Source of the DNA: an uncultured bacterium
Lineage (GTDB): Bacteria; Margulisbacteria; WOR-1; XYC2-FULL-46-14; WPAF01
NCBI GenBank assembly: GCA_903930225.1
Contig: CAIYXV010000056.1
Span: forward strand, 1 to 32,367
Direction of reading: 5' to 3'
DNA: 32,367 nt
The first letter of the stretch is position 1; every line of letters begins with the position of its first letter. Below are positions 21,350 through 22,114 of this stretch, in pieces. Under the pieces are notes generated by a model. That model was not told where the DNA came from and searched no databases. It saw only the letters and a list, made by a program, of their open reading frames with translations. The translations under genes and the position numbers were made by a program.

Positions 21350-21354
21350 TATAA

Positions 21355-21487
21355 TAAATCCGAATTTCCGAAATCCTAAATCCGAACATAGAACCGCCTT
21401 ACTTCGCTCGGCGGATCATATAATCAATTGCATTTTTCGGATTTCGGACATTCGCCTGCCTGCCGGCAGGCAGGGATTTCGGATTTA
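21355..21487. repeat. Palindrome-rich intergenic repeat with terminal inverted repeats
   Basis: 133 bp bounded by perfect 10-bp inverted repeats TAAATCCGAA (21355-21364) and TTCGGATTTA (21478-21487). More copies of the AATCCGAA/TTCGGATT word occur inside, along with a perfect 20-bp palindrome CCTGCCTGCCGGCAGGCAGG (21455-21474). It is non-coding and sits between the GlmU-like gene and tRNA-Gln. A TGATATAAT (21347-21355) at its left end could be a promoter reading through it into the tRNA. Confidence 0.65.
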
Positions 21488-21497
21488 CGCGAAGCGT

Positions 21498-21568
21498 TGG
21501 GGGATCGTCTAATGGTAGGACACCGCCCTTTGAAGGCGAGAATCGGGGTTCGAGTCCCTGTCCCCCAG
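21498..21568 (+). tRNA. tRNA-Gln (TTG)
   Basis: 71-nt cloverleaf: acceptor TGGGGGA/TCCCCCA with U1:A72 as in glutamine tRNAs, D arm with GGTAGGAC, anticodon loop CTTTGAA (anticodon TTG), T arm CGGGG-TTCGAGT-CCCTG, discriminator G, no encoded CCA. There is one C:A mismatch at the top of the anticodon stem. Its last 18 nt are repeated exactly 316 bp downstream. Confidence 0.95.
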
Positions 21569-21884
21569 AACTTTTCAGACTGGTAAACTTAAGTCGTTTT
21601 GAGAACCAAGGTTCTCAACGCTCGCTTTGCTCGCTGCTCTCCTTTCCTTTTTCTTTTTGACGAAACCTATCAGAGGTAATGTTCTTCTATGGGTGGGTGC
21701 CATCAGAGTTTTTTATTTTCAGGTCTAGGAGAACAGGGACGAGAAAGGCATTTTTCGCCGAGCGGAGCGAGGAAAAGCGAGCGACACCCTCGCCCAAGCG
21801 AGGTGAGCGAGCAGAAGAAAAATGCCATGTCCCGAAGCCGCCACCCTCCACCAGAGGCGCGGAGGACGAGTCCCTGTCCCCCAG
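21551..21884 (+). repeat. att-like 18-bp direct repeat of the tRNA-Gln 3' end
   Basis: cgagtccctgtcccccag occurs at 21551-21568 (3' end of tRNA-Gln) and again, identical, at 21867-21884. The second copy is not part of a tRNA. Duplication of a tRNA 3' end is the usual mark left by tyrosine-recombinase integration. No integrase lies between or beside the copies, so this looks like a remnant or a very small non-autonomous insertion. Confidence 0.65.
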
Positions 21885-22114
21885 CCACCCTGAACGAATA
21901 GTCTCAAGCAGATGGCCGGAATGCTTCGGATTTTACAGATAATAAAAACCTCGTCCTTGTTATAAAACATCGAGTGCTTTTTCTTTAATCTCGCGCTCCT
22001 CGACAGCTCGGGACAGGCAAAAAGATGTTTGCCCCGATTCCTACATAGGGACTACGGTAATAACATAAATGTTGCGAGGTCAAAAACATAAAAATTCCCG
22101 AGAGGCAATAATTA
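21569..22114. other. Gene-free accessory stretch after tRNA-Gln
   Basis: About 545 bp with no credible coding frame. It holds a short hairpin GAGAACC-AA-GGTTCTC near 21600, repeated GCGAGC/GCTCGC words, the large inverted repeat 21736-21833 and the second att-like copy at 21867-21884. Beyond 21885 I see only AT-rich spacer up to the antiporter stop codon. Confidence 0.6.
21736..21833. repeat. Nested inverted repeat inside the att-flanked segment
   Basis: Outer arms GGGAC (21736-21740) and GTCCC (21829-21833); main arms GGCATTTTTC (21747-21756) and GAAAAATGCC (21817-21826); central hairpin CCTCGC-CCAA-GCGAGG (21788-21803). The 98-bp unit could fold into one long branched hairpin and may be the core of a small repeat element. 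Confidence 0.6.

Follow-up and report, generated by a model that had tools for sequence, protein, structure and literature searches.

The working tRNA-Gln gene of an uncultured WOR-1 bacterium (Margulisbacteria) is followed by the remains of a second tRNA-Gln, and it is well supported that the 18-bp duplication found there is what survives of the 3′ portion of this older gene, its T-arm and acceptor 3′ strand. The DNA analyzed, hereafter the window, is a stretch of 32,367 nucleotides that forms contig 56 of a 137-contig genome (G000). An earlier note had interpreted the duplication as an att-like pair left by integration; very probably, that reading should give way to one in which a wrecked tRNA gene carries an insert in its T-loop. 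The explanation that we favor, with somewhat better than even confidence, is that the wreck, N, is an older tRNA-Gln lying behind the working gene, R, and a relic of an insertion that brought in a GIY-YIG endonuclease gene together with a replacement tRNA.

The 18-bp repeat and the disrupted tRNA-Gln copy

The last 18 nt of tRNA-Gln(UUG), CGAGTCCCTGTCCCCCAG, recur exactly 316 bp downstream at 21867–21884, as the earlier note had reported. This 18-mer is found at only these two sites in the 1.69-Mb genome, even when up to two mismatches are allowed, and the longest match in shuffled versions of the 400 bp downstream was 13 nt (3000 trials). The 298 bp between the copies had been described as gene-free and indeed contain no convincing ORF and no GIY-YIG fragment; the spacer at 21570–21733 likewise retains no trace of a 5′ tRNA half or of a GIY-YIG gene. 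The features of the locus, as we read them, are as follows.

21497–21569, + strand: intact tRNA-Gln(UUG), the working gene R (ARAGORN; Rfam RF00005, 59.3 bits)
21551–21568, + strand: 18-bp repeat, copy 1, from the T-loop to the discriminator base
21570–21733, + strand: spacer from the intact tRNA to the wreck, with a hairpin repeat at 21598–21646
21734–21740, + strand: T-stem 5′ strand of the disrupted tRNA copy, CAGGGAC, stem P1, pairing with 21870–21876
21741–21866, + strand: two hairpins inserted into the disrupted copy at its T-loop (type B family; covariance model R1)
21747–21826, + strand: first hairpin, P2, with inner stems (21747–21756 pairs with 21817–21826)
21829–21867, + strand: second hairpin, P3, with an inner stem (21829–21832 pairs with 21864–21867)
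21867–21884, + strand: 18-bp repeat, copy 2, the 3′ end of the disrupted tRNA-Gln copy N
21885–21887, + strand: encoded CCA immediately 3′ of the displaced tRNA end (from the sequence)

The CCA that follows the second repeat copy is likewise found in the tRNA-Gln genes of relatives (L003, L006 and L007), and the hairpin repeat in the spacer also occurs elsewhere in the genome (blastn: G000:C74 and C102). On the other side of the tRNA, 21350–21490 harbors an inverted repeat, TAAATCCGAATTTCC ... GGATTTCGGATTTA, which has about ten related copies in the genome, one of them directly upstream of a broken tRNA-Tyr copy (L080).

The strong nested inverted repeat noticed earlier between the two copies is present (21747–21756 with 21817–21826), and the earlier reading missed that 21734–21740 provides a matching T-stem 5′ strand for the second copy. 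The structured core of 21734–21884 consists of two adjacent hairpins, P2 and P3, enclosed by stem P1, and in our reading P1 corresponds to the T-stem of another tRNA-Gln copy, the T-loop of which would be filled by P2 and P3 (~125 nt). In the window P1 is CAGGG/CCCTG, while the T-stem of the intact tRNA-Gln is CGGGG/CCCTG; P1 is the better Watson-Crick stem of the two. The window insert scores 138 bits against covariance model R1, which was built from nine sequences that include the window, with a structure derived from the same nine. In P2 and P3, 97.9% of the pair cells are paired and 17 pairs show compensatory change, a level of covariation reached in none of 500 shuffles. Sliding the structure reduced pairing to 33–50%.

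Insert families in disrupted tRNA genes

The region 21734–21884 shares 75–85% identity with stretches in other genomes of the class, and searches with the covariance model located the insert core (21742–21870) in 10 of the 31 class genomes, at one or two copies each, with no match in the family and order mates of the window, its nearest relatives. Thus, the comparison with relatives that the earlier note had proposed reveals variable presence. Its concern that the second copy might belong to a dispersed repeat family holds for the insert within that copy and not for the 18-mer itself. For ten of the 12 strong copies, the feature immediately upstream is a matching tRNA (Gln-UUG, Gln-CUG, Asn, Tyr or Ala). 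Most copies end in the 3′ end of their adjacent tRNA, which is sometimes decayed; decayed or interrupted tails were seen at G011 Asn, G013 Asn, G021 Asn, G014 Tyr and G011 Tyr. At Gln, Asn, Tyr and Asp loci the P1 5′ strand varies with the type of the neighboring tRNA, and in 11 of 12 copies its own tRNA type is the best or equal best match, the exception being G014 Gln, where the strand AGGGAAGG shares 8 nt with tRNA-Tyr versus 7 with tRNA-Gln. Orphan copies with no adjoining matching tRNA are present in G022, where an intact tRNA-Asn is located on a different contig, and in G025, and truncated copies are present in G013, G021 and G012.

The insert family is specific to WOR-1; outside the class the covariance model gave just two weak matches. 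One of these, a weak relative at L086 in a genome from another class of the phylum (G068), lies behind tRNA-Asp and has a P1 strand, GAACGGGC, that is complementary to tRNA-Asp. A tree of the insert cores was poorly resolved, with labels weakly clustered by tRNA type, and no larger element with common protein neighbors was seen around the type B copies. A recombination element carried by viruses was rejected, as no viral contig holds a real copy, and pattern matches in Cohnella, Clostridia and viruses were attributed to chance (~10 bits, or a mismatch to the model).

A second class of insert occupies the same place in other wrecks. Type A double hairpins (TCCCGA..TCGGGA, twice) fill the T-loop at TTC^GA in displaced Ile, Arg, Val and Ala copies and split the tRNA into pieces at consecutive positions (for example, 1–42/43–59). 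The tRNA-Val locus of G020 (L181, G020:C63, oriented positions about 1245–1570) is, as we read its sequence, the clearest intermediate. Here the native tRNA-Val is split in the anticodon arm and in the T-loop by two double hairpins, and its rejoined pieces are identical at 77 of 77 positions to the unbroken orthologues in G011 and G014, which belong to other families. The first insert encloses, within its hairpin loop, a complete replacement tRNA-Val, whose acceptor and T-stem pairs differ from the native ones.

Other wrecks take further forms. At L019 (G011 tRNA-Tyr), two are stacked behind one tRNA, a mini-insert ending in CTTCCCTCTCCA and an older type B insert, an arrangement that suggests repeated rounds at the same gene. 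The wrecks at L112, L115 and L101 have the anticodon arm swapped for a palindrome of the same 17-nt length, such as TCCCGATCGGATCGGGA or TCCCGGTCGGACCGGGA. Those at L083 (G000 tRNA-Glu-UUC) and L127 (G014 tRNA-Glu-CUC) have in common a third type of structured insert, which contains a T-arm-like antisense segment close to its start.

The strong covariation of P2 and P3 and the conserved unpaired bases of the insert would also be expected of a functional folded RNA acting downstream of tRNAs, for example in the control of tRNA maturation, with a P1 strand able to pair either to the tRNA or to the downstream tRNA copy; the tracking of tRNA type by P1, and its greater strength than the tRNA's own T-stem, point in the same direction. 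This explanation is nevertheless unlikely given the patchy presence of the insert at one or two copies per genome, the orphan and truncated copies, and the unrelated double hairpins found at this T-loop site in other wrecks. The insert also matched no covariance model in Rfam 15, and a known structured RNA was accordingly ruled out as its identity. The idea that P1 is a guide RNA directed against the tRNA, considered at first because P1 tracks tRNA type, was dropped, as type A wrecks keep plain T-stems with hairpins in their T-loops.

Split tRNA copies and GIY-YIG genes

Copies of tRNA 3′ ends of at least 12 nt within 400 bp of the 148 tRNA genes of four WOR-1 genomes were found 16 times downstream and never upstream (Fisher p = 2e-5). 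Across 182 tRNA loci, copies of 3′ halves numbered 18 downstream versus 0 upstream (p = 5e-6) and copies of 5′ halves 12 upstream versus 3 downstream; because some loci of this set were picked for carrying the element, the survey of four genomes provides the cleaner test. With 3′ halves downstream and 5′ halves upstream, intact tRNAs are nested in split copies of themselves.

At many of these split-tRNA loci, a small ORF for a GIY-YIG endonuclease (about 85 residues) is situated between the old 5′ half (N5′) and the intact tRNA. The copy in G015, which is the closest relative of the window element (about 85% identical, same isoacceptor), lies in such a locus (L026, tRNA-Gln). Here N5′, with its break in the anticodon loop, is followed by the GIY-YIG gene, R, a type B insert in the T-loop and the old 3′ half (N3′) with an 18-nt tail. 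The genome of the window itself has a comparable arrangement at tRNA-Tyr (L080 and L206), with N5′, a GIY-YIG gene, an intact tRNA-Tyr, a truncated relative of the insert and a tail. The endonuclease domain (Pfam PF01541) was recognized above cut-off at L026 (60.8 bits) and L080 (56.3 bits). An endonuclease ORF together with a replacement tRNA part is found at G015 Gln, G000 Tyr, G014 Asp, G016 Tyr and G016 Pro and is absent in the window. Neither a GIY-YIG trace nor a 5′ half is left in the window, so it is through the G015 and Tyr loci that the window is connected to the cassette. The genomes are mostly metagenome assemblies, but the GIY-YIG/tRNA arrangement is also present, at Tyr and at Pro, in G011, a curated genome consisting of a single contig, in which misassembly is unlikely.

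Five genomes together contain 16 small GIY-YIG genes. Of these, 12 have an adjoining tRNA in the same orientation, and pieces of the adjoining tRNA are located near nine of the 12. We estimate the chance expectation for such adjacency at about 1% (~45 tRNAs in 1.6 Mb). The sister genomes G011 and G014 provide matched sites with and without a wreck or cassette, including Val and Arg sites at which no wreck was seen. At Pro-cgg, G014 has the order [tRNA][wreck] versus G011, which has an endonuclease gene, a difference that reflects either loss in G014 or gain in G011.

A second subgroup of GIY-YIG genes is located just downstream of the tRNA, at L170, L171 and L172 (tRNA-Asn) and at L005, L014 and L192 (tRNA-Gln); no pieces of an old tRNA were detected at the loci of this subgroup that were checked. 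At L193 (G000:C93:261-479), a GIY-YIG gene with an in-frame stop lies upstream of a tRNA-Cys that is followed by a 22-nt copy of its own 3′ end, probably representing a decaying cassette.

Could the wrecks instead have arisen, with no endonuclease involved, by simple tandem duplication of a tRNA whose redundant copy later decayed and received hairpins? At the G014 Asp locus, the promoter-proximal flank is common to N and R. About 19 bp upstream of the tRNA are duplicated there, and the tRNA at that locus could therefore have been duplicated locally instead of being imported from a foreign source. Several wrecks, moreover, lie away from any GIY-YIG gene (G020 Val, G016 Arg and Ala, and G014 Val, Ala and Arg). 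Against this, the small GIY-YIG genes that adjoin tRNAs commonly lie exactly between N5′ and R, and in G020 R is nested in the split N rather than simply in tandem with it. On balance, we consider this explanation improbable.

The earlier proposal of a tyrosine-recombinase att scar, whereby an element entered at the tRNA 3′ end, lost its interior and left attL and attR, is the least probable and now seems very doubtful. The stretch of a tRNA from the T-loop to the 3′ end is the classic attachment core; the repeat spans just this stretch, a direct repeat of the tRNA 3′ end flanks the segment and presence varies among relatives. However, an att pair would have an uninterrupted core at both ends. 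The second copy instead retains a T-stem 5′ strand of its own and holds ~125 nt of inserted DNA in its T-arm loop, unlike a clean attL/attR pair. The search for an integrase that the earlier note had called for yielded a single gene with a Phage_integrase domain (PF00589) in the genome, unlinked and on another contig. Comparable loci carry 5′ tRNA halves upstream and a GIY-YIG gene instead of an integrase, and no integrase-bearing version was found among the ORFs at the examined loci, which were read by eye rather than by profile search. What stands of the earlier proposal is that the locus looks like the scar of an insertion into a tRNA gene.

Proposed origin and comparison with known systems

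The wreck in the window was thus probably left by an endonuclease-plus-tRNA insertion, and we infer that it originated by homing. In the mechanism we propose, the endonuclease would cut tRNA genes and drive the insertion. A putative GIY-YIG endonuclease would break a tRNA gene, and repair would leave the endonuclease gene and a full tRNA copy in or beside the broken gene, giving the order N5′-GIY-YIG-R-N3′. Copy R would keep the cell alive, while the broken N, relieved of selection, may gather hairpin inserts in its loops. Because N5′ and R form direct repeats, the endonuclease gene could subsequently be lost, which would yield the [tRNA][wreck] order seen at G014 Pro-cgg. The window locus may formerly have held an endonuclease gene that was lost together with N5′; decay could explain the loss, as could recombination of N5′ with R, whose 5′ half is identical to it. 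Of the elements of this scheme, the repeat, the T-stem, the insert family, the nested loci and the GIY-YIG genes beside tRNAs are read directly from the DNA.

More broadly, WOR-1 may harbor self-spreading elements composed of a small GIY-YIG homing endonuclease and a replacement tRNA, which would break tRNAs of many specificities in repeated rounds, with loop hairpins marking the dead genes, a generalization for and against which we see about equal odds. If it is correct, essential single-copy tRNA genes are repeatedly invaded and replaced by a selfish endonuclease element that brings a spare tRNA, which would account for tRNA gene turnover and for att-like repeats behind tRNAs in the phylum. 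It would also caution that a duplicated tRNA end is not always the attachment site of a phage or an integrative and conjugative element (ICE). In the literature, covered largely without subscription papers, we found no account of the WOR-1 case or of this combination in bacterial tRNA genes.

Several known systems show partial likeness. Integrative elements that target tRNAs (phages, ICEs and tyrosine recombinases) similarly duplicate the tRNA 3′ end and keep the tRNA functional; unlike them, the window has no integrase or linked recombinase, its displaced copy is interrupted in the T-loop, and related loci carry 5′ halves upstream. The repetitive or double hairpin elements of mitochondria consist of adjacent hairpin pairs that are dispersed and apparently mobile, with no flanking duplication (PMC2800124). 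The WOR-1 inserts resemble these in their adjacent hairpins, their dispersal (type B in 12 places) and the lack of flanking duplication (type A), but they are bacterial and are found repeatedly in the loops of disrupted tRNAs, and the likeness is one of form. SegB of phage T4 is a free-standing GIY-YIG homing endonuclease, the gene for which lies between tRNA genes and which targets the tRNA region (PMC2988022). As at the WOR-1 loci, a GIY-YIG gene is thus located at tRNA genes; SegB differs in belonging to a phage, in lying between different tRNAs and in not being described as splitting one tRNA and supplying its replacement.

A further parallel in arrangement comes from mobile endonuclease ORFs of fungal mitochondria, which supply a new 3′ part to the gene into which they insert, as in Allomyces atp6, Rhizopus atp9 and Glomus atp6, atp9, cox2 and nad3 (PMC3630166). 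In these elements, an endonuclease ORF (GIY-YIG in Glomus atp9) within an essential gene carries a replacement for the displaced part, and the native 3′ part persists as a downstream relic that is closer to relatives than the replacement is (PMC3630166). Similarly, related WOR-1 loci combine an endonuclease ORF with a replacement, and a relic lies beside the working copy (21734–21884 in the window; G020 Val). The fungal elements occupy mitochondrial protein genes, whereas the WOR-1 cases, known here from sequence, concern bacterial tRNA genes in which a whole tRNA is supplied and the relic bears hairpin inserts. If our proposal holds, a strategy of fungal mitochondrial protein genes would extend to the tRNA genes of bacteria.
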